Shown piece after piece: positions 6,132 through 17,729 of a stretch of 22,075 nucleotides of DNA; the stretch's first letter is position 1; every line of letters begins with the position of its first letter. The stretch spans positions 1 through 22,075 of IMG/VR virus record IMGVR_UViG_3300009181_000396. The stretch is one strand, 5' to 3'. The notes below the pieces were generated by a model. The model had not been told where the DNA came from. It made no database searches and saw only the letters and a list, made by a program, of their open reading frames with translations. Position numbers and translations under genes: made by a program. Source of the stretch: a virus.

Positions 6132-7235
6132 TTATTTAAAGAATTTGCCGACCATCCAGCAAACCACTGAATATCGATTGCCTTCTTCCACATCTTCCAC
6201 GCCGTGCATGATGAAGCTTGGGAATACAAGGACTGTGCCTTTGCTTTGCGGGGGGTAATACTTTTCGTGCCCGTTTTGTAGGTAAAACCTACCACCTTTG
6301 AAATCGTCATTAAGGAAGGCAAGTACTGTAAGTTTACGACATTCATCCCCATGTGCCAAGAAGGTATCCACATGCGATGTGTACCGCCCACCAGCAGGGT
6401 AAATTAAGAATTCAGCTTGGTTGGCATGGGTAATGTCAAACTTCCATGCCGCATGATTTGCCGCAAATCCCGCCGCAGCCAATCTACCTCCAATGTCCTT
6501 GTAGGTTGGTAATATAACCCTTTCTACATTTCGGATGGAGGTATCAATAGCACCAGCGCCAATAACGGGCGGCTGTTTTGGTATTTCGGTTTTTGTGTAC
6601 AGTTTTATTAATGAATCGCAAGCTTCTTTGGTCAAAATGTCTGTGTAAACCCATTGTTGAAGTTCTTGGCTTGGTAAGTTTAAGCCTTGGCGCTTGTCAA
6701 ACTTCCATTCTTTGTGTGGCCCATCAGCGTCAACGTAATGCAAAAACACTTGGGCTTGCCAATTACCTTTAAACTTTTTGCGCCAGTGGTGCTTTTCCAT
6801 GCCACGGTACAGAACAGCATCACCTACACCCATAGTGATCTTGGATGCGTTTTTTTCCCCTTCATCACCCATGTATATAGGCCAAGCCTCACCATCAAAC
6901 CCTAAAGTCAAAGTTGCGCTGATTTCACAAGATGCTCTGTCTGTATGGATCTTTAGCTTTTCACCAGTTTTGTATAACCGTGCATAGCTGTAAGTGGGAT
7001 ACAAGCGTTTGCCTGATGCCTTTTCAAAGTGAGGCAACAAATCAACAAGAAGTTTATCAAATGCCACAGCACCATGGATTGCTTCTGATGTAGGGCATTG
7101 ACTGTCTTTAGTGGTTTCTTTTGTGTCAATCAACCGTTTCAGTTCAACAGTTAATTCATTGCAATTCTCAACATCAAGGAAATCCTTGAGATGTACATAC
7201 TTTTCAATAATAAACTGAGACAGTTGATTACACAT
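6132..7235 (-). CDS. Tandem two-domain 2-oxoglutarate/Fe(II)-dependent oxygenase (prolyl-4-hydroxylase type)
   Basis: A 367-residue enzyme with two copies of the double-stranded beta-helix oxygenase fold. Copy 1 (about 70-170) has H97-x-D99 in KIHTDRASCE, then VGDAVLYRGMEKHHWRKKF, whose His149 or His150 is the distal iron ligand. Copy 2 (about 265-365) has H288-x-D290 in YTSHVDTFLAHGDE, then GTVLVFPSFIMHGVEDVEEGNRYS with His344 as iron ligand and Arg354 to bind 2-oxoglutarate. Copy 1 lacks a clear basic residue at the Arg354 position (Trp or Gln there), so its cofactor binding is less certain. Such enzymes use O2 and 2-oxoglutarate to hydroxylate protein side chains or small molecules. Its substrate is unknown, and the fibre's collagen arms hold no Pro or Lys. 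It sits after the tail tip genes in the same operon. Confidence 0.85.
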   Translation of the reverse strand: MCNQLSQFIIEKYVHLKDFLDVENCNELTVELKRLIDTKETTKDSQCPTSEAIHGAVAFDKLLVDLLPHFEKASGKRLYPTYSYARLYKTGEKLKIHTDRASCEISATLTLGFDGEAWPIYMGDEGEKNASKITMGVGDAVLYRGMEKHHWRKKFKGNWQAQVFLHYVDADGPHKEWKFDKRQGLNLPSQELQQWVYTDILTKEACDSLIKLYTKTEIPKQPPVIGAGAIDTSIRNVERVILPTYKDIGGRLAAAGFAANHAAWKFDITHANQAEFLIYPAGGRYTSHVDTFLAHGDECRKLTVLAFLNDDFKGGRFYLQNGHEKYYPPQSKGTVLVFPSFIMHGVEDVEEGNRYSVVCWMVGKFFK

Positions 7236-8483: not shown

Positions 8484-10642
8484 TTTGCGCCTTTCAGCAT
8501 TGCTATTTCAGATTTTAGTATTTCTAGCTCTTTTTGCATATCAGCAAACAACTCTTTCATACTAGGCTTGTATTCAATGTAAACAGGCATATCCATGCCC
8601 AACACACCAGCGGCGCTTATTGATGATGCCGAAGCTTCTCCAGCACTTCTGAATGATACAAATTGTGAAGGCTGACCACTAAATGACAATGCACCAATGA
8701 TTGTGTATGTGTATATAAAATCAGCTGCGCCAGCCATTGTGTAGTCAGTTCCAGCCTTTATCAAAGCGCCACAAAACCACATCAAATGGGAGTTACGAGC
8801 AAATTGAGTTGGAAACACTACACTGGAATTGGCAAAAGTTGTTTGTGTATAGTTTTCAGAAAATATCAAAGCATTTGCATTATTAAAAGCAAAAACCACA
8901 ATATTTAAATTTCCACCAACTGATGGTGTAAACAATTCGTAGCCTTGATTTGTGCCTATGTAGTCATAGTCACTATCCATTATTAAAGCGCCATTTAATA
9001 AAAGTAGTTCAGCGCCATCAGTATTTGTGGCTGGTATCGTTGTTTGACCATTTACCAAAGTTTCGGTTTGTACAACAAATGGGACTTTGTCTGCTGATGT
9101 AACAGCATCAATCAATCTTATGTAGTACATCTGAATCACATCATTTAATGAACATGCACTTGCCAATGTCACTGTAGTTGATGTGCGGGTGTAATCGTAA
9201 TTGGGGTCAAGAAAACACCCATTGCGAAACACCAATATTTGATCGGGTTGTGTATTTGAAAAACTAAATGCCGTTTGGCCTGCGGTTGCGGATGTTTGCA
9301 ATGTGCTGTAACGAACAGTATCAAGTGCAGCAGCTTGAATAATCCGTCCAAATTCATCTACCTCAATTACAGAAGTTCCAGCTGGATCAAAAGAATATCC
9401 AGCAGTATCTCTACCTTGCCCATAAGGATCAAGATTTAAATTTACAACACCGTTGGCTCCCAAATTGGAAAATCCAATACGCCCCGATGTTGGACTGCTT
9501 ACATTAACAACTACAGCTCCCGTGCGGCTGTATACATCAACGTAAGGGCTGGCAGTTAGTGTTTGAGTTGTTTGATTTAACCAACCTGAATTGTCAGGTG
9601 CATCAATAGATAAATTAAATTGTGCAGTGTTGCCGCCAGTTGTTCTTACCCACAAATAAACATCAGTAATAAAAGTGCCGCCAGCATCAAACCATGTGTA
9701 ATTTGCTGGGTTTGTATCAAGGGCAATAATGTCAGATGCCTGCACACCAAAATATGTTTTACCCGCAGGATCATTAGATGAGCTTGCGCCTACACTACTT
9801 GTGCCATATCGAACCAATAAATATCTAAATGGAGACTCAACAATCAATGGGTCTGTTGAAATTATGCCAATAGAAGTCATTGCCCCCAAAGTGGCAACAT
9901 CTAAATTAATGGTTGTTCCATAAATATATGGAAGGTAGCCAATTGGTTTGTTTGCGTTGGGAACAAAAGAAATGTTTCGCCCACCAAAAGATCTGTAAAA
10001 CAATTCATCAGTTGCCCCAAAATCATACGGTGACCATTCGTAATCTGCGGGGTCCACTGATATGGTGTTGTCGGTTGATGTTGCTAAACCATAAAATAAT
10101 TTGTCTGTAGGACTATCACTAATGTTTGTGCCTGCACTGTCATCCGCAAATTTGACGTTCATCCATTGGTCAAACGGCCTAAATGGGTTATCAAGATCAA
10201 TGGAACGCAAAGGCACAAGCCGCCAATTTTGGTTTAAATCAGGTACTTCTTGAGAGGCGGCAAAAGTGGCATGTCGACCACCAGCAGTTACAACCCACAA
10301 TGTTTTGGTTGCTCCAAATCCACCAGTTACTTGAAACCATGTGTATTGAGCGGGGTTAACGCTTTCTGTGACAGTGTCGGTGTTAAACAGGCCAAAATAC
10401 AAACGACCATATGGGTTATCGCTAAAATTTAAACCAGCAGTGTTATCGGCATATTTGACATCCAAGTACCTGTATTGATACTGAATCAACGTGCCAACAG
10501 TGTTAGAAATGAAACCCGTAGATGGATCATTGTTGACAGGGTATTGCCCAGGCGGCGTACCAGCGCCCAAGTTTGCAAGGATGTAGTTGACCGCCTCAGA
10601 AATCTCTGAAATCGATGGGTTGCTGTCTAGTGCAAATGGCAT
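8480..10642 (-). CDS. Repeat-built tail protein (fibre or tail hub component)
   Basis: A 720-residue protein made of two kinds of repeat. Three copies of a roughly 80-residue unit occur at about 57-140, 158-235 and 271-354. Each has a V-K/R-Y/F strand, then DxxAG..xSDxP, Y-F-G-L/V/A, a VDPAxYxW motif, and a GG-R/N-x-A strand. Next is a short region at 370-445. Three tail-fibre-type units follow at about 448-510, 523-588 and 597-664, marked by a G-Q-T start, an NG loop and DYDY or DYT (e.g. LVFRNGCFLDPNYDYT). The C-terminus is helical (KELFADMQKELEILKSEIAML, about 696-716), a likely trimer coiled coil. Its ATG overlaps the stop of the nozzle gene by one base, and its stop overlaps the next gene as ATGA. 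It likely attaches to the nozzle and bears the short fibre and adhesin. Confidence 0.72.
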   Translation of the reverse strand: MPFALDSNPSISEISEAVNYILANLGAGTPPGQYPVNNDPSTGFISNTVGTLIQYQYRYLDVKYADNTAGLNFSDNPYGRLYFGLFNTDTVTESVNPAQYTWFQVTGGFGATKTLWVVTAGGRHATFAASQEVPDLNQNWRLVPLRSIDLDNPFRPFDQWMNVKFADDSAGTNISDSPTDKLFYGLATSTDNTISVDPADYEWSPYDFGATDELFYRSFGGRNISFVPNANKPIGYLPYIYGTTINLDVATLGAMTSIGIISTDPLIVESPFRYLLVRYGTSSVGASSSNDPAGKTYFGVQASDIIALDTNPANYTWFDAGGTFITDVYLWVRTTGGNTAQFNLSIDAPDNSGWLNQTTQTLTASPYVDVYSRTGAVVVNVSSPTSGRIGFSNLGANGVVNLNLDPYGQGRDTAGYSFDPAGTSVIEVDEFGRIIQAAALDTVRYSTLQTSATAGQTAFSFSNTQPDQILVFRNGCFLDPNYDYTRTSTTVTLASACSLNDVIQMYYIRLIDAVTSADKVPFVVQTETLVNGQTTIPATNTDGAELLLLNGALIMDSDYDYIGTNQGYELFTPSVGGNLNIVVFAFNNANALIFSENYTQTTFANSSVVFPTQFARNSHLMWFCGALIKAGTDYTMAGAADFIYTYTIIGALSFSGQPSQFVSFRSAGEASASSISAAGVLGMDMPVYIEYKPSMKELFADMQKELEILKSEIAMLKGAK
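8484..8498 (-). promoter_or_regulatory. Ribosome site GAAAGGCGCAAA inside the upstream gene's last codons
   Basis: The minus strand reads GAAAGGCGCAAA followed by ATGA. The AAAGG core lies inside the final codons Leu-Lys-Gly-Ala-Lys of the 720-residue protein, giving tight translational coupling. Its AGGCGCAAAATG is identical to that before the nozzle gene. Confidence 0.6.
9581..10474 (-). repeat. Three divergent protein repeats in the 720-residue tail protein
   Basis: This covers the codons for residues 57-354. The three units share the pattern Y-F-G-x, N/D-P-A-x-Y-x-W and a closing G-G strand, at spacings of about 101 and 113 residues. They are protein-level repeats, too diverged to stand out at the DNA level. 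Confidence 0.7.
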
Positions 10643-12264
10643 TAGAACGCATCCTCAACAACTGTAGCTTGCCAATTCATGGCTGTCATATTCCATGCAT
10701 TGGTTGCATCATTTGATTCAACTTTAATAGACACTGTACGCACAGCGTTTTGTTGAGTTGTTACCCAAGGATTGTCTGTAACAATATCCACAATTCCAGT
10801 TTGACCGTAAGTTGGATCTTGAGCGGTTGAGTTAGCGCCGCCAATGGTTATGTCTATGCTGCCCGTGCCAGCAATTTCGGGCAAAGCACGGTGTATGTAC
10901 ACTTTTGAGCTGTAAGGTACTGGGCCTTTTTCAGATTGCAAAACAAGGTTGTTGCGCTCAAACAATGCTGGAATTGGCGCATCATTGATAAATGAATTAC
11001 CTTGGCCTGTTTGAATTAATTCTGCACTTGCTGTGCTGCCTTGTGCGTAAGTAACACAACGTGTTGCATACATAAAGTCAGCTTCAGTTGAGTCATATAC
11101 AGGGGCTTCGCAACCATTACATGCGTCTTGAATGTCCTTTGGCGCATTCCACACCTGAAGGTCATAACGGTACGACAACATCTTGTTGCACCATCCCGTG
11201 CTTTCCAAGTCAGGATAGTAGATCTCAATCTGATACTTCTGCGTGTTGTTTACCATAAACAAACGGTTTTGGTAAGTTGGACTTAGGTTGGCAAAGAAAT
11301 AATTTCTAACCCGTTGATTACCCAAAGAGTTGAAATTGCTTCCATCGAATACCCAAATGTCTCTACTATCAATTCCATATACAGCTTGGTCAGTGTTGAC
11401 GCAACAATTGTTGTTTAGCAAGCCACGACCTTGGTTAAACAGTCGAACTCCAAAAATTGGTGCTGTGCTGCTTTGATATGCAATTGGGCTAAACACCACG
11501 GTATCCCAATATGAGCAAACGTAAAAACTGCCACCTAAAAAGAAACCATCAACTAATGGCCCACGCACAGGTACTTCTTGTTCGTTGGCAATGTTGGTTA
11601 GGGTTGGCTCCCAAGTAGCTGGGACACCTGTACCAGCAAAAGCTTGTGACCACCGAACCGTTGTTGGGAAATTTACTGTGACGCTGGTATCAAGATCTTG
11701 AGTTAAATTGCCTGCAATTAAAATGTTGCCAACATTGGGCGAGCAGAAATTACGCACAAATCCTGCTCGGGTGGCAACAACACTTGTTCCATAGTTCCAC
11801 ACAAAATCGTCAGGCGCTGTGTCATAAATTTGGATTTCGGTGTCAGTTGGACGGTAATACATAGGAGGGCGCAATGTGTCGTTGATAAAAAACACACCAC
11901 CAACCCATGATGAAGTAATATTTAGATCATCGTTATATCCCGTCAAAGCAACATTTGGATTTGCTCCATAACCTGGCGTTATATTGGTAACGCCAGTGGT
12001 TGCAACTTTGTACCATCTTCCTTCACGAGTTGCCACAATATAGACAAATGTGGTTTGATCACGATAGTTGGCATTTACAAAAATGGAGTTACCTGGAACG
12101 GCATCTAATATTTGTTGTTCGCCATAAACCTTCTTTACCCCACGCACATCTGCTTCAACATTCAAGCCGTTGTTGTATTCCGTTGGACCCAAGGCGTTGC
12201 TGGGCACATCGGGTGTAAACGACATGTTGGTAAATGGGGTACGCAGACGGGTGTAATCGGACAT
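10642..12264 (-). CDS. Tail nozzle / tail tube-B-like protein
   Basis: A 540-residue beta-rich protein that would form the nozzle below the adaptor through which DNA leaves, the role of gp12-like proteins in T7 and the nozzle in SU10-like phages. Supporting features are length, position with the adaptor and fibres, and recurring propeller-type strands. N-LNVEADVRGVKK near the start fits the entry motif (N-G-x-x-x-x-x-G-x-x-x-R type). SWVGGVFFINDTLRPPMYY (119-137), FPTTVRWSQ (199-206) and AVYGIDSRDIWVFDG (294-308) are also of that kind. Cys clusters at 287-288 and 382/385 (C-x2-C) are unusual for such proteins and could bind metal or form crosslinks. The start has the ribosome site AGAGGCGCAAA-ATG. 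It follows the glycosyltransferase cassette after a 28-base gap. Nozzle is my best call, and a generic tail protein is the fallback. Confidence 0.68.
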   Translation of the reverse strand: MSDYTRLRTPFTNMSFTPDVPSNALGPTEYNNGLNVEADVRGVKKVYGEQQILDAVPGNSIFVNANYRDQTTFVYIVATREGRWYKVATTGVTNITPGYGANPNVALTGYNDDLNITSSWVGGVFFINDTLRPPMYYRPTDTEIQIYDTAPDDFVWNYGTSVVATRAGFVRNFCSPNVGNILIAGNLTQDLDTSVTVNFPTTVRWSQAFAGTGVPATWEPTLTNIANEQEVPVRGPLVDGFFLGGSFYVCSYWDTVVFSPIAYQSSTAPIFGVRLFNQGRGLLNNNCCVNTDQAVYGIDSRDIWVFDGSNFNSLGNQRVRNYFFANLSPTYQNRLFMVNNTQKYQIEIYYPDLESTGWCNKMLSYRYDLQVWNAPKDIQDACNGCEAPVYDSTEADFMYATRCVTYAQGSTASAELIQTGQGNSFINDAPIPALFERNNLVLQSEKGPVPYSSKVYIHRALPEIAGTGSIDITIGGANSTAQDPTYGQTGIVDIVTDNPWVTTQQNAVRTVSIKVESNDATNAWNMTAMNWQATVVEDAF

Positions 12265-12292: not shown

Positions 12293-12748
12293 CTAGATGC
12301 TTTTCAACGATCCCACATGAATTATGTGGGGTAATATTTCTTCAGGTTTTACAAAGTGGTTAGGATTGTGTTCTGTGTTCTCCCACCAAAGAAATTGATT
12401 GGCGGCAAGACTGTTTCTATCCTTTAGCAAGTTAATGTTTTCAGGGTGTCCAAAGATTAATGGGTCTGACACCGACCACAGAACAATACCTTGTTTGCCC
12501 TCTGACCAACAAAAATGTTGAAAAAAACTATCCACCCCAATCCATGTTCGACATTCATGAATCAGTGCTTTTAGGTCAGAAATGCTCAAGTTTGTCCTGA
12601 AATCATCAGTCAATTGGCGTTCACCATCAGTTCCTATTTGAACAATTGGCTCATCAATCAACTTGATTAATTCTTGCCAGTAAGGATAGTTTTTGGGATT
12701 CTGTTTGCCATTGTTTAACGCACGAGAAAAGGGCTGGATGACAATCAT
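12293..12748 (-). CDS. GT9-like (heptosyltransferase-type) C-terminal donor-binding half
   Basis: A 151-residue protein that matches only the C-terminal Rossmann half of GT-B family 9 transferases. It starts at the first strand of that half (MIVIQPFS), then K and W of the usual K-x-W-P region (KQNPKNYPYWQELIKL), IVQIGTDGE (35-43) for the nucleotide-sugar loop, a SISDLKALIHECRTWIGVDS block (55-74), and D-S-x3-H with WSVSDPLIFG (73-100), the family's D-S-G-x2-H and late S-D-P motifs. The N-terminal half sits at the end of the upstream protein. The two frames meet at ATGA, so the pair could form a two-chain enzyme. A sequencing frameshift in one ancestral ORF is the main alternative. No heptose specificity can be claimed. 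Confidence 0.8.
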   Translation of the reverse strand: MIVIQPFSRALNNGKQNPKNYPYWQELIKLIDEPIVQIGTDGERQLTDDFRTNLSISDLKALIHECRTWIGVDSFFQHFCWSEGKQGIVLWSVSDPLIFGHPENINLLKDRNSLAANQFLWWENTEHNPNHFVKPEEILPHIIHVGSLKSI

Positions 12749-13713
12749 AGGTACATCCTTTCAAAAGCCGCTTGTAAGCTGCCAGTCCATTTCCACTGAT
12801 CCATCTTTTTGTAGATGTTCCATTGGTCAATGTCGCCATATAGTTGTTGGGCTTCCGCAATAGACCGTCCTTCAACAATTTCAGGGTAACAGGTAAACAC
12901 TACAGGGTTCTTGATCTTTGGCAAAATTTTAGAAAAGACAATGTGATCGCCAAGACCACAATTCAACACTACGATAGTGCTGTCGGCAATTGCAACATGG
13001 TTTTTAAAGATTTGGTCATCATGGGCATACATAGCAGGGTTGGTTTCAGACCTAATGCCGCCAGTAGGTTGCTTTAGATGCCATGTAACCGCATAAGGCA
13101 CAACAAACAACTTGTACCCTTTTTGATGCAAGCCATAGCTAAACAAAGATTCTTCCCTGTGTGCTACCCGTGATAAACCAAGGTTATAGTCATGTACGCC
13201 AGCACGATACAAGAAAGAGCAATACAAATGCTCGACTTGTTTCTTTTCTTTGATCAATCCCCATTGGATATTTGGTTCTATCTCAATATTGGCAATCAAT
13301 CCTGAAGACTCAATAACAGCAGGCAAATGAGGCGGGTTCATTACCGTGCCACCTATGGCTCCAACATCATCCGCAATGTGGCTGCAAAGCACCTCTAAGA
13401 CGTTTGGTTCAGGCACGGCATCATCGTCTACTCTCCACACCCAGTCATAACTCATGGTGTTTGCCATTTGATGGATATGGTGCTGGCCTTTTTTGTTGGC
13501 GAACAACCATTCCCATTGGATCTTTTTGCAACTCAAAACATAAAACAAGTTTTGATACAAAGGGTCTTCCCGCATGTCCTTTGGTTCATCGTTGTCATCA
13601 AAGACAATCAGTTTGTCGGGCAACCGTGTTTGATTCATTACGGCTTGGATAACCAAAGGCAGGGTAGTGAAGTATCTACCTCTTGTGGCAACAGAGCAAA
13701 GTATCTTACTCAT
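12745..13713 (-). CDS. GT2-type glycosyltransferase carrying the N-terminal part of a GT9-like fold
   Basis: A 322-residue protein in two parts. Residues 1 to about 235 form a GT-A family 2 transferase. It has a start strand ILCSVATRGRY, a nucleotide-binding FDDND (38-42), a metal-binding DDD in RVDDDAVPEPN (96-98), an acceptor-side acidic pair in HREESLFSYGL (Glu187/188), and a late His in VTWHL (211). Residues about 245-322 look different: IVVLNCGLGDHIVFSKILPKI followed by VVFTCYPEIV is the first strand, Gly-rich loop and helix of a heptosyltransferase (GT9) N-terminal Rossmann domain. This piece is only about 78 residues long, against about 150 in GT9 enzymes. The stop overlaps the next start as ATGA, and the next ORF supplies the missing GT9 C-terminal half. 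It probably adds a sugar to a glycan, phage fibre or host surface. Confidence 0.85.
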   Translation of the reverse strand: MSKILCSVATRGRYFTTLPLVIQAVMNQTRLPDKLIVFDDNDEPKDMREDPLYQNLFYVLSCKKIQWEWLFANKKGQHHIHQMANTMSYDWVWRVDDDAVPEPNVLEVLCSHIADDVGAIGGTVMNPPHLPAVIESSGLIANIEIEPNIQWGLIKEKKQVEHLYCSFLYRAGVHDYNLGLSRVAHREESLFSYGLHQKGYKLFVVPYAVTWHLKQPTGGIRSETNPAMYAHDDQIFKNHVAIADSTIVVLNCGLGDHIVFSKILPKIKNPVVFTCYPEIVEGRSIAEAQQLYGDIDQWNIYKKMDQWKWTGSLQAAFERMYL

Positions 13714-14380
13714 TGTCCCACCTACAAAGCATCAAATTGCACCTATTGGTGTTGCTGATAGGCTCCATAGTTGTTTTGCATCTGCCGTTCTCGGACACAT
13801 ACGAAAAGTCAAAGCCAACAAAGTCTTTTTCTGTCAAGCCATGCAGCTTGTGATGTTCACCCCAAAAGCCAACAGGCTCGTTGTGCGGGACGCTGATCAA
13901 AAGTCGTTTGCAATGGTGTTTAAGTTTTTCAACAATCTCTAATCCGTTAGAAAGATGCTCAATTACTTCAAACGCCACTATGGTTTCATGGTCAAGAAAT
14001 TCATATGTGTTGATATCAGCTTGAACAAACCATTTTTTTAAACCCCAATTTTGTTCTTTGGCAACATCAATAATGATTGGATCGTAATCAAGGCCAAGGT
14101 AATTGACTTGTTGCGAAAAAAATTGAGAACCGTAACCTGTGGCGCAACCAAGCTCAAGCATAGATGCGCCCAACAAGTTTTGATTTGCCCAAATATAACG
14201 AGCCGCTTCTCGGCCTCCTACTGGATCGCCTTTTAGGAATACAGCACGTTCAAAGTTGTTTGTCAGCCGCCATCGATACCAGTCAGGATGATGTTCTTTG
14301 GCAAGTTTTAAAACATGAATGTCGAGTATTTTTTCCCATTGCGTTGCTATGTCAAGTCCATACAATTCTTTGCTTTTCAT
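13706..14380 (-). CDS. Class I SAM-dependent methyltransferase
   Basis: A 224-residue soluble enzyme of the Methyltransf_23 kind. The SAM site is clear: motif I ELGCATGYG (residues 76-84), an acidic end of strand 2 in LGLDYD (Asp98), Asp122 in QADIN, and the post-motif block AFEVIEHL (136-143) followed by LLISVPHNE (160-168). The N-terminal helix, with WEKILDIHVLKLAKEHHPDWYRW, is the lid seen in sugar and small-molecule methyltransferases. The ATG lies inside the fibre's stop (ATGA), and the C-terminus overlaps the glycosyltransferase start by 8 bases, so all are translated together. Likely substrates are a sugar or glycan made by the neighbouring transferases. DNA methylation is unlikely because no DPPY/NPPY motif or target recognition domain is seen. 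Confidence 0.88.
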   Translation of the reverse strand: MKSKELYGLDIATQWEKILDIHVLKLAKEHHPDWYRWRLTNNFERAVFLKGDPVGGREAARYIWANQNLLGASMLELGCATGYGSQFFSQQVNYLGLDYDPIIIDVAKEQNWGLKKWFVQADINTYEFLDHETIVAFEVIEHLSNGLEIVEKLKHHCKRLLISVPHNEPVGFWGEHHKLHGLTEKDFVGFDFSYVSENGRCKTTMEPISNTNRCNLMLCRWDNE

Positions 14381-16743
14381 TTTTCTCCATTCAACTTTTT
14401 CAATTCCAATTCAAGGTTAATAACTCGCTTGGCAAGTTGGATGCATGCTACCAAAGAAGCATTACCGTAGGCAACCGATAAATACCCGTTATCGTTTTCA
14501 GATACAGCAATAGACAATGCTTTTTGCAAAGATTGAGCAGATACACCTACTTGGCGTATAGAAGATGGAGTATCGACACGGGTGTACTCTCCGTGTTTTA
14601 CCAATGCAAGCAAATTTATAAAGTCTTCAGGTAAATCTTCCCAGTCTGTTTTTAAACGCTCATCAGATGAGCCTGAATGTGTAATAGCGTTTAAATCGCC
14701 AGTTGACGGAGTGAAATAAACGGCTGAAGTTGTTGAAACAGTAGGAGTTTGATTTGATCCTGCCGCAGCTACGCCAACCACATATTGGGTTGTTGCCGCA
14801 ACGCTTGCTGTTGCATTAATTGCAGTGCTTGGACCTGATCCACCAGTTGCACCCGAGATGCCTGAAAAACCCGAATATCCCGAATAACCTGAAAACCCTG
14901 AAGTACCACTTGCTCCATTGGTTCCATTGGTTCCGCTGATGCCACTAAATCCTGACCAACCACTAATACCTGAAAAGCCTGAAGTTCCGTTTGTTCCGTT
15001 AGTACCATTGGTTCCACTGTAGCCTGAATATCCCGATTCTCCGCTAAATCCTGAAAGACCAAGACCGATAGCCCCACTTGCACCCGAAAATCCACTTATT
15101 CCCGAAAAACCACTAAATCCTGATGTTCCAATTGTTCCATTGGTTCCCGAGTAGCCACTGATTCCTGAAAATCCTGAATACCCGCTAATACCCGAAAAAC
15201 CTGATGTTCCATTGGTTCCGTTTGTACCGCTGTACCCTGAGATACCCGAATATCCACTGAATCCCGATGTACCGTTTGATCCATTGGTTCCCGAATATCC
15301 TGAATAACCGCTAATGCCGCTGTATCCCGATTGGGTGTACATCACTTGTGCAGCAGTAAAAATAATAGATGGCGTTCTAGGGTAATTTCCAGCCGCAGCT
15401 ATTGTTTCAAGAGAAACACTTGTGTTTCCTGTTTGCCAATAAACTTCAATGTAGTCTGCGGCATCAAGCGGCAAAACAAAATTGACAGTAACAATTTCTG
15501 ACGAAAATGCACTTCCTTGTTTGTCAGGAACATCGTAATGTGAATTTGTATCTGCTAAATTTGTGCCATTCTTTTTTAACCAAATTTGTGTGCTACCTTT
15601 TTGATTGCTGGTATTGGTAAATTGAATTGAAAAAGTTAAGCTGTAAACACCCGTATTTGCAAAAGTCACACGGCTATTTGAAACAACTGAAACGCCACTA
15701 TTTCCAGCATCCGCACTGTTTAGAGTAATGGGATAAGCAGTATTTATTGCCGCCGCTGTTTGTGTTGTTGTGTCCCAAAAAGAACCCCAATAGCCTTGAG
15801 TGCCACCAGCTCCCACAGCGCCTGAATACCCGCTGTACCCCGATATACCTGAGAAGCCCGAGATGCCGCTGTAACCGCTAAAACCCGACACGCCGCTACC
15901 TGAGTACCCTGAGTACCCTGAAAAGCCGCTTACGCCCGATCCTGAGAAGCCTGAGATACCTGATGCGCCCGAGAATCCGCTAATACCTGAAAATCCGCTT
16001 GCGCCTGAGATGCCACTAAAGCCGCTGATTCCACTGAAACCACTGAATCCGCTGATTCCACTGAATCCGCTGATGCCTGAGTATCCTGAATACCCACTTA
16101 CACCTGATCCCGAAAAGCCGCTAATACCTGAAGCACCCGAATATCCGCTAATACCTGAAAAACCTGAAGTGCCTACAGCGCCGCTAAAACCTGATTGACC
16201 TGAAAAACCCGAGATTCCACTAAAACCTGAAAAACCCGAGATCCCGCTAAATCCTGAATATCCGCTTACGCCTGATCCTGAAAAACCACTAGCACCAGTT
16301 GCTCCGCTAAATCCCGAATAACCCGAATAGCCGCTAAAACCCGATTGGCCTACTTGACCAAATAAGCCTGGCACGGTCCATGTCAATGGATCAGTGTTGC
16401 GTGAGTTGACAAGAGTAATCGATACCCAAATTTGACTGGGGTAAGTTACTGATGCTGGAGGTTGCGATGTCCAGCCAGCAGGCGCTGTACCTACGTTGGT
16501 TGTGAAGCTCCATGAACCACCCGTAGGCGTAGCAGGCGCAGTTGTGGCAACTTGGAAAACAAACCACTCAAAGTATGTTCCGCCAAAGGTTGTTCCACTG
16601 CCATATAAACCAGCCGATTCCGAACCTGGTTGAGCTACAACAGAGCCATTTGGGCTTGTGCCATATAAACCAGGAGTTGCAGCGCCAGGCTGGGCAATCA
16701 GTGCCCCATCGCCAGCGTTTCCGTAGAGGCCACCTGATGCCAT
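14377..16743 (-). CDS. Collagen-like tail fibre with C1q-like domain and S74 intramolecular chaperone
   Basis: A 788-residue fibre, probably a trimer. Order of parts: (1) residues 1-50, three tandem GLYG units, two followed by AQPG; (2) a compact beta domain, 51-125; (3) collagen-like arm I, about 126-315, Gly every third residue, mostly Gly-(Phe/Tyr/Ile)-Ser; (4) a C1q/TNF-like domain, about 316-470; (5) collagen-like arm II, about 471-637; (6) a C-terminal S74 chaperone starting near SSDERLKTDW. In endosialidase-type chaperones the Ser and Lys of SDERLK form the self-cleaving dyad. Here these are Ser693 and Lys698 with the same spacing, and the end shows the expected coiled-coil helix (LAKRVINLELELKKL). 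The fibre would be matured by release of about 96 residues. Its stop overlaps the next start as ATGA, coupling it to a methyltransferase. It could be a tail or head fibre. Confidence 0.88.
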   Translation of the reverse strand: MASGGLYGNAGDGALIAQPGAATPGLYGTSPNGSVVAQPGSESAGLYGSGTTFGGTYFEWFVFQVATTAPATPTGGSWSFTTNVGTAPAGWTSQPPASVTYPSQIWVSITLVNSRNTDPLTWTVPGLFGQVGQSGFSGYSGYSGFSGATGASGFSGSGVSGYSGFSGISGFSGFSGISGFSGQSGFSGAVGTSGFSGISGYSGASGISGFSGSGVSGYSGYSGISGFSGISGFSGFSGISGFSGISGASGFSGISGFSGASGISGFSGSGVSGFSGYSGYSGSGVSGFSGYSGISGFSGISGYSGYSGAVGAGGTQGYWGSFWDTTTQTAAAINTAYPITLNSADAGNSGVSVVSNSRVTFANTGVYSLTFSIQFTNTSNQKGSTQIWLKKNGTNLADTNSHYDVPDKQGSAFSSEIVTVNFVLPLDAADYIEVYWQTGNTSVSLETIAAAGNYPRTPSIIFTAAQVMYTQSGYSGISGYSGYSGTNGSNGTSGFSGYSGISGYSGTNGTNGTSGFSGISGYSGFSGISGYSGTNGTIGTSGFSGFSGISGFSGASGAIGLGLSGFSGESGYSGYSGTNGTNGTNGTSGFSGISGWSGFSGISGTNGTNGASGTSGFSGYSGYSGFSGISGATGGSGPSTAINATASVAATTQYVVGVAAAGSNQTPTVSTTSAVYFTPSTGDLNAITHSGSSDERLKTDWEDLPEDFINLLALVKHGEYTRVDTPSSIRQVGVSAQSLQKALSIAVSENDNGYLSVAYGNASLVACIQLAKRVINLELELKKLNGEK
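14380..14667 (-). other. S74 intramolecular chaperone domain of the fibre
   Basis: Residues 693-788 of the fibre. It begins with SDERLK (Ser693 and Lys698), the S74 auto-cleavage dyad. It continues through YTRVDTPSSIRQVGVSAQSL, where the Gln-Val-Gly-Val-Ser-Ala-Gln segment matches the family's GxxAQ-like strand, and GYLSVAYGNASLVACIQLAK, the typical L-x-V-x-Y stretch and long trimerising helix. Cleavage just before Ser693 is expected from the family. Confidence 0.85.
14833..15333 (-). repeat. Collagen-like arm II of the fibre, with GTNGT blocks
   Basis: About 167 codons of Gly-X-Y. Unlike arm I it holds five blocks of Gly-Thr-Asn type (starting near residues 485, 506, 533, 577 and 604), which create nine Asn-Gly-Thr/Ser triplets. 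It has no Pro or Lys. Confidence 0.88.
15799..16368 (-). repeat. Collagen-like arm I of the fibre, with 168-bp higher-order repeat
   Basis: About 190 codons of Gly-X-Y, mostly Gly-(Phe, Tyr, Ile)-Ser, with no Pro, Lys or Asn. Register breaks of the form Ser-Gly-Ser-Gly-Val occur at residues 155, 211, 267 and 281. The first three are exactly 56 residues (168 bp) apart, showing growth by duplication of a 168-bp unit. Confidence 0.9.
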
Positions 16744-16751
16744 GAATTACC

Positions 16752-17729
16752 TCACTTAAAGCTGTATCTTGGGTTTCGAGGCTGGAACTCAGATGTCAGG
16801 TGAGTGTCGCCACCACGCCATTTATCTTTAAAGTTCTGATCTTCAATCTTGCCATAGGCATCTTCAAAGCGACCATCCCATTTAACGGCCTCTTCGTTGT
16901 TTTTGTTTTTATCGTAGTACGCCCACAATGTGCCGTACAGGTATCCTTCAGGAAAAGATGCTAACGCCGCATTGTTTTGCACAATTGGGTTAAGCGCATC
17001 TTCGGTTGGGCCTAACAAAAATGGAAAAGTGCGTTGGTAATAAGCTTTGATAACTACGTTTGCGCCAGGGTTTGGCGTAAATACATAGTTGGGTCCAACT
17101 TCACTGAATGAAGCACGGATCACCCTTGGCACACCAAACGGGCGCACATAGAGTTGGTCAATCATTCGGCGGCGAATAATCTCTCGGTCACCAACACGGT
17201 CATAAATAATCCAAGGACCATATGAAGTGTTGGGGTCATTGGACGGAGGAGTTTCTTGAAAAAACAAAATAGGCCAATTCATATCCGCAGGGATAGGAGC
17301 CAAACCTTGTGCATCGGTTGTCAAAATTGTTGGGTCAACGGTGTCATATGGGTTGGTACGCAAGCCAGGCAGCTCAATCACACGCATCTTTAGTTCGGCA
17401 AGCTGAATACAAGCTTGTATTTCCAGCGATGATTGCGTTGGCATTTTTAAAATAGTTGCGCCAGGATATGTAACAGAACCCCAAATATTTTCGGGGTCAC
17501 TTACAGTAATTGTGGTGCTGGATACGGCTAAAACTGCGGTGTAGTTAGAAATGCCATTGGAAATAAAGTCGCCAATGTATATGAAAGGTCGAGGGTCAGC
17601 GGATACAGTAATAACGTCAGTTGAAGAGTTATAAGAAGTAGCCGTGATGGTTAAAGCTGTTGGAATTGCCCCTACCCACTGTGCTACACGACTTACCAAT
17701 GCGTTAGCAGATTGAATGAATAAGGACAT
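16752..17729 (-). CDS. Head-tail adaptor protein, SU10 adaptor-like
   Basis: A 325-residue protein that would sit under the portal and join the head to the tail nozzle. The order of motifs fits the adaptor group of short-tailed phages. A beta-rich N-terminal insert (about 25-90) comes first. Next is a helix, SLEIQACIQLAELKMRVIEL (about 100-120), then IPADMNWPILFFQETPP, then a conserved-looking block IIYDRVGDREIIRRRMIDQ (about 193-211). After it come PGANVVIKAYYQRTFPFLLG and a final helix with YLYGTLWAYYDKN and WDGRFEDAYGKIED, which carries the C-terminal arm. It starts with a GAGGTAG ribosome site, and the fibre gene follows after 8 bases. I am fairly sure of the adaptor role and less sure of the exact family. 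Confidence 0.72.
   Translation of the reverse strand: MSLFIQSANALVSRVAQWVGAIPTALTITATSYNSSTDVITVSADPRPFIYIGDFISNGISNYTAVLAVSSTTITVSDPENIWGSVTYPGATILKMPTQSSLEIQACIQLAELKMRVIELPGLRTNPYDTVDPTILTTDAQGLAPIPADMNWPILFFQETPPSNDPNTSYGPWIIYDRVGDREIIRRRMIDQLYVRPFGVPRVIRASFSEVGPNYVFTPNPGANVVIKAYYQRTFPFLLGPTEDALNPIVQNNAALASFPEGYLYGTLWAYYDKNKNNEEAVKWDGRFEDAYGKIEDQNFKDKWRGGDTHLTSEFQPRNPRYSFK

Follow-up and report, generated by a model that had tools for sequence, protein, structure and literature searches.

Glycosylation of virion proteins by phage enzymes has been published for mycobacteriophages (Freeman 2023, as cited in PMC12619734), and modified or sugar-bearing collagen-like proteins are also on record: mimivirus modifies its own collagen (PMC9614988), BclA is thought to owe its hydration and stability to glycosylation (PMC8968730), and triple helices are stabilised by the glycosylation of Thr (Bann 2000, as cited in PMC3368898). 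The glycosyltransferases (GTs) of aquatic phages are usually ascribed to the modification of either the host surface or DNA. Here we describe a stretch of 22,075 bases, which is the whole of the IMG/VR virus fragment IMGVR_UViG_3300009181_000396 (the window) and comes from a freshwater phage, where the gene for a collagen-like fibre is followed by a cassette of genes for a methyltransferase (MT), a GT2 enzyme and one half of a GT9-like enzyme. As the enzyme set changes across related phages whenever the repeat of the fibre changes, the enzymes probably decorate the fibre itself, and judging from sequence comparisons we put at roughly three in four the probability that this cassette is a dedicated modification module of the fibre shaft, which carries out a glycosylation and methylation matched to its repeat.

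The minus strand of the window encodes the structural module of an SU10-like phage, which includes the major capsid protein (SU10_MCP, 2e-34) and the genes listed below. In this list, S-adenosylmethionine is abbreviated SAM, and loci compared with the window are labelled by L-numbers.

16752-17729, minus strand: SU10-type adaptor, the upstream boundary of the variable block (PF24175, 3.6e-10; collinear with sister phage L151)
16743-14377, minus strand: collagen-like fibre, 788 amino acids (Pfam Collagen 1.6e-42, Peptidase_S74 6.4e-6, BclA_C 0.0038; repeat composition)
14380-13706, minus strand: SAM-dependent class I MT, 224 amino acids (PF13649, 8.3e-8, above the cut-off; 444 IMG/VR relatives)
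13713-12745, minus strand: GT2 glycosyltransferase whose C-terminus bears the N-terminal half of a GT9-like domain (PF00535, 2e-5)
12748-12293, minus strand: GT9C, the C-terminal half of the split GT9 (heptosyltransferase-like), 151 amino acids (PF01075, 0.0028)
10642-12264, minus strand: phrog_3287 virion protein (the nozzle), the downstream boundary of the variable block (phrog_3287, 6e-39)

The gene order, the classes of the enzymes and the matching between repeat type and enzyme type are seen directly, and the matching is seen in relatives that were collected by means of the nozzle protein alone. In all 41 such loci that have both the adaptor and the nozzle in view, the type of repeat and the type of enzyme agree: the G-[FYI]-S fibres are followed by the MT/GT2/GT9 cassette (5/5 loci), the G-P-T fibres by a different GT of 353 amino acids containing TPR repeats (13/13), and the collagen-free relatives contain neither enzyme set (23/23). 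In a maximum-likelihood tree of the nozzle, 7 changes are needed for repeat type and 7 for enzyme type, and because repeat label and enzyme label coincide throughout the rows, the switches are shared ones, with at least 3 switches for G-[FYI]-S on well-supported branches. The match also holds at four loci (L011, L153, L158 and L160) where other genes intervene between the fibre and the enzymes. The alternative GT shows a weak match to GmaR and SunS, and as these enzymes modify proteins, this resemblance supports the modification of the fibre.

One such switch can be followed at the level of DNA by comparison of the window with L151, whose nozzle is 97% identical. The two sequences are 93.6% identical through the adaptor and the first 144 bases of the fibre gene, beyond which the repeats and the enzyme block are unrelated; the homology returns with the very next base beyond the GT9C stop, at 89% DNA identity. 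In L151 the 353-amino acid GT (8947-10005, plus strand) is found in the exact place of the window's cassette, and its start overlaps the fibre stop. However, the fibre anchor and the S74 tip are common to both phages, and the tip protein of the window shows 80% identity to that of L151, which carries the other enzyme, versus 64-66% to those of L154 and L155, which carry the same cassette. As the tip lies between the repeats and the enzymes, a simple co-transfer of neighbours explains the match poorly. The DNA of the tip is more diverged (75% identical) than the flanks (89-94%), and hence the whole block may have been imported from a donor outside the sample whose tip resembled that of L151.

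The association is also seen when the search starts from the enzymes. Scans of IMG/VR with the MT and GT2 identified 444 and 197 relatives, respectively, of which the best 80 of each were used, and together with loci found by DNA-pattern scans these provided the 194 cassettes analysed here. Where the upstream DNA extends for 6 kb or more (57 cassettes), a collagen-like open reading frame (ORF) precedes the cassette on the same strand in 53, and 51 of these 53 ORFs are of the G-[F/Y/I]-S (Pro-less) type. A reading of the window made earlier from its sequence alone (the sequence-only reading) had proposed such a search for the same gene order elsewhere, and its result is the opposite of the outcome named there as refuting, viz. 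that the cassette mostly occurs apart from collagen-like fibres. In the cultured Methylophilaceae phage P19250A, which has a host-specificity-J (lambda-J-like) gene, a G-[FYI]-S fibre (protein P19250A_0023) is again followed by the cassette with order and overlaps kept, and 32 of the 50 cassette loci of at least 12 kb have no homologue of the capsid, adaptor or nozzle protein encoded in the window; the cassette thus crosses phage types. A bacterial origin of the cassette was considered and rejected, as bacterial and archaeal genome assemblies hold just 3 contigs with it, all from metagenome-assembled genomes, and it therefore looks phage-borne. Several loci (L066, L067, L122 and others) have an additional collagen-like ORF, shorter than the first, which is located directly 3' of the cassette at about 2.6 kb from the cassette start.

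In the reverse direction, two DNA-pattern scans picked collagen-like loci independently of the cassette, and those with at least 4 kb downstream were counted. Among the matches listed, the cassette is present in 24 of 36 G-[FYI]-S loci versus 0 of 41 other collagen-like loci (Fisher 2e-11, where the test treats related loci as independent and the 0.4 threshold for repeat class was chosen after viewing the cassette-linked repeats). A broader rule, that all Ser/Thr-rich phage collagens have GT neighbours, was rejected, as pooled Pfam scans (145 and 136 proteins) gave few GT matches on either side. Among the pooled neighbours of phage collagens of the G-P type are GT25, PLOD-type GT and 2-oxoglutarate-Fe(II) (2OG-Fe(II)) oxygenase domains, which recall the collagen-modifying enzymes of animals and mimivirus.

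Within the window, the four genes form one overlapping series, situated, as the sequence-only reading had it, between the adaptor and the nozzle, whose matches lie on either side. The overlaps described in that reading are all found in the sequence: the fibre stop is within an ATGA at 14380-14377 that overlaps the MT start, MT and GT2 share 8 bases at 13713-13706 (ATGAGTAA), and GT2 and GT9C share an ATGA at 12748-12745. The overlaps within the cassette, which it had taken as translational coupling, exceed chance, as the gap from MT to GT2 is -8 in 90 of the 194 cassettes and that from GT2 to GT9C is -4 in 154 of them. However, the ATGA joining fibre and MT, while present in the window, is not a general feature and is seen only among its near relatives; in other cassettes the fibre lies a median of 19 nt upstream, at times with intervening genes. 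A PHROGs search provided no useful match for the cassette proteins.

In the fibre of the window, an anchor (residues ~1-125) precedes two shafts of G-[F/Y/I]-S triplets, at residues 126-322 and 473-639; between them lies a middle domain (~325-460) to which the weak BclA_C match belongs, and a Peptidase_S74 tip follows (residues 693-744; PF13884, 26.8 bits versus a cut-off of 22). The sequence-only reading had described a dominance of Gly-X-Ser with more than 100 hydroxyls from Ser, Thr and Tyr, and indeed the repeat runs contain 115 Gly-X-Y triplets, 89 of them with Ser at Y, and 134 Ser/Thr/Tyr residues, the commonest triplets being G-F-S (30), G-Y-S (20) and G-I-S (20), with proline nearly absent. 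The fibre is collagen-like in its long uninterrupted Gly-X-Y repeats, which reach 30 triplets in a run (PF01391, 1.6e-42), but it departs from the bacterial and phage collagens described so far, in which Pro is frequent at X and aromatics are scarce; in cassette-linked fibres the median fraction of Pro at X is 0.01 and that of hydrophobic or aromatic residues is 0.71. The collagens of E. coli prophages are without Phe, Tyr and Trp (PMC3368898), whereas such residues abound in the shafts described here. Repeats of the G-[FYI]-S type (49 triplets) are also found in L414 (9379-11580, plus strand), on a contig of 494 kb which is presumably a giant-phage genome. The structural genes of the window further include one for a 2OG-Fe(II) oxygenase-like protein of 367 amino acids (6132-7235, minus strand; PF13640, 1e-16), and of the 12 loci in the nozzle clade to which the window belongs, 11 have a homologue of it, whether their fibre is of the G-[FYI]-S or the G-P-T type; it is possible that this protein is a hydroxylase acting on the fibre.

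In regard to the enzymes, the MT scores above the Pfam cut-offs of Methyltransf_25, Methyltransf_12 and Methyltransf_11 (33.3, 31.6 and 28.8 bits) and thus belongs to the class I SAM-dependent enzymes. GT2 scores 25 bits against the PF00535 cut-off of 23.3, and its acidic motif of the metal-binding kind, D96-D97-D98, and other acidic residues are invariant in 71 sequences. The AlphaFold2 model of GT2 (mean predicted local distance difference test score, pLDDT, 93.6) has a GT-A fold, and among solved structures it comes closest to polypeptide GalNAc-transferases (Z 19, root-mean-square deviation 3.7, 243 residues); a PDB sequence search with GT2 gave spurious matches alone. The last 80 residues of GT2 contain GLGDH (residues 253-257; G253, G255, D256 and H257 invariant), the N-terminal motif of GT9, and the missing N-terminal half of GT9 is thus the C-terminus of the GT2 protein. 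GT9C matches only the C-terminal part of PF01075, at 17.5 bits and below the cut-off of 22. However, for its AlphaFold2 model (pLDDT 93.1; D73 and H78 invariant), ranks 1-28 of the fold matches are all WaaF, WaaC or TibC (template modelling score by query, 0.67 to WaaF), and the earlier assignment of a GT9-like half is therefore borne out by the predicted fold, whose best matches are all ADP-heptosyltransferases. The GT9 domain perhaps uses ADP-heptose. The proximity of GT2 to protein O-GalNAc-transferases and of GT9C to heptosyltransferases including the protein-modifying TibC, as well as the invariance of catalytic-type residues in both GT parts, support the modification of the fibre.

A sequencing error as the cause of the split in GT9 was ruled out, as the 4-base overlap recurs in 154 cassettes. 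In L422, GT2 and a full GT9 form a single chain of 570 amino acids, which supports a joint working of the two ORFs in the window; the N-terminal half is shorter here than in ordinary GT9 enzymes, and the activity of the reunited domain is accordingly something we infer. Fusions of MT with GT2 occur in 11 of the 194 cassettes, and in L088 (4135-5412, plus strand) a long form of MT bears an additional N-terminal GT2 domain (PF00535, 4e-15), which suggests that some cassettes have three GT activities.

For the acceptor, the residue, the sugars, their linkage, the order of steps and the benefit, we infer the following scheme. The fibre chains would be made in the cytoplasm, where the soluble GT2 probably adds the first sugar to Ser at the Y position (possibly to Thr or Tyr) within the G-[F/Y/I]-S triplets of the shaft. 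The two chains of GT9, once reunited, probably extend it by a further sugar, perhaps heptose, and capping of the glycan is probably the task of the MT. A Pro-less shaft exposing aromatic residues would thereby likely be made soluble and stiff, and perhaps the virion surface would also be changed or shielded. The effects ascribed to glycosylation in triple helices and in BclA, together with the avoidance of aromatics by prophage collagens, provide a rationale for this scheme.

If the cassette instead modifies the surface glycans of the host (lipopolysaccharide (LPS) or capsule) during infection, blocking superinfection or aiding virion release, then it would simply happen to lie near the tail genes. 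This is a common interpretation of phage GTs (PMC7029224; PMC10202952), and it is favoured by the facts that the GT9 enzymes WaaC and WaaF build the LPS core and that two enzymes acting on teichoic acid, RmlT and TarP, have structures near that of GT2. However, it does not predict that enzyme type should track repeat type, nor the absence of both enzyme sets from all 23 related phages without a collagen-like fibre. Additionally, no strongly hydrophobic segment is present in the MT, GT2 or GT9C of the window; serotype-converting Gtr proteins have membrane segments. An action on the host surface is thus very unlikely, and the preference of the sequence-only reading for the fibre as the target is supported by the 53 of 57 cassettes, by the tracking of repeat type and by the lack of membrane segments. 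It could also be that the fibre and cassette form one recombining tail module and move together without a functional link, which accords with their adjacency and their exchange as blocks with sharp borders. However, such hitchhiking, while less improbable than an action on the host surface, is still unlikely, as the tip of the window is nearer to a phage with the other repeat and enzyme set, and the match persists with intervening genes, across phage types and in an independent search. The least probable of these alternatives is that the enzymes modify some other part of the virion (the fibre tip, a neighbouring fibre or the capsid), as the tips of cassette-bearing fibres vary widely (S74 and several unrelated kinds) and the repeat type is constant; it draws upon the glycans at the C-termini of mycobacteriophage capsid and tail-tube proteins (Freeman 2023, as cited in PMC12619734) and upon L004, where the cassette accompanies a non-collagen fibre.

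Other observations weigh against the modification of the shaft as proposed here. Four cassettes (L004, L120, L314 and L422) are preceded by 6 kb or more of DNA in which no collagen-like gene is present, and of these L004 (6673-12070, plus strand) is the clearest exception, its cassette being located by the nozzle with a fibre of 942 amino acids lacking collagen-like repeats and an MT that is 89% identical. Among the matches listed, 12 of the 36 G-[FYI]-S loci lack the cassette; their neighbours, pooled and not taken locus by locus, include other GT2, GT9, MT and sugar-nucleotide enzymes, and single scans of ten selected neighbour proteins did not place such enzymes at every one of these loci. 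The Ser/Thr-rich collagens of unrelated phages show no clear excess of GT neighbours over Ser/Thr-poor ones. Independent-pair tests gave the expected result in 3 of 3 and 4 of 4 pairs, and the 3-4 independent contrasts situated on well-supported branches are too few for significance in a sign test. Lastly, the sugar-chain GT-A enzymes RmlT and SpsA match the GT2 model at a Z just 1-2 lower, and the acceptor of GT2 is therefore unreadable from its fold.

As the enzyme and the fibre repeat switch together, the likely substrate can here be read from the gene content. If the modification of the shaft is correct, sugar-coated fibres would occur in a widespread group of freshwater phages, the folding and solubility of a Pro-less, aromatic-rich collagen-like shaft would be explained, and enzymes already paired in nature with their acceptor repeats would be available for work on protein glycosylation; the isolated phage P19250A makes this directly testable. 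In a wider sense, we consider it somewhat more probable than the contrary that tailed phages contain interchangeable pairs of shaft and decorator, in which every type of collagen-like repeat comes with its own glycosylation machinery and is exchanged along with it, and that the G-[F/Y/I]-S shaft represents a new kind of collagen-like fibre, dependent on glycans and made by a GT2, a split GT9 and an MT.

In comparison with the known systems, the mycobacteriophage enzymes are similar in that phage-encoded GTs act on the phage's own virion proteins, but their targets are the C-termini of capsid and tail-tube proteins, whereas here the predicted target is a collagen-like shaft, with the enzyme set matched to its repeat. 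BclA of the Bacillus anthracis exosporium is likewise a collagen-like surface filament with sugars on its collagen-like region; however, it is a bacterial spore protein, and we know of no switching of enzymes linked to its repeats. The L230 collagen lysyl hydroxylase/glucosyltransferase of mimivirus also modifies the virus's own collagen-like proteins, but it belongs to a giant virus of eukaryotes, is of the GLT25D1/PLOD type and makes hydroxylysine-linked glucose. TibC and the BAHT autotransporter heptosyltransferases, which are among the best fold matches of GT9C, are GT9-fold enzymes acting on protein; however, TibC is full-length in one chain and assembles into a dodecamer, whereas here the GT9 domain is split over two genes with one half fused to GT2. 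GmaR and SunS, the weak relatives of the alternative GT following the G-P-T fibres, act on flagellin and bacteriocin, and the GT related to them occurs in sister phages and not in the window. The statement in the sequence-only reading that no established phage system has this form needs to be qualified, as virion glycosylation and the modification of collagen by mimivirus are published, but it stands for the matched switching, since a search of the open-access literature found no report of glycosylated collagen-like phage fibres or of a repeat-matched, co-switching cassette. Thus, virion glycosylation by phages and glycosylated collagens are each known separately, and it is their union in a matched, co-switching module that looks new.
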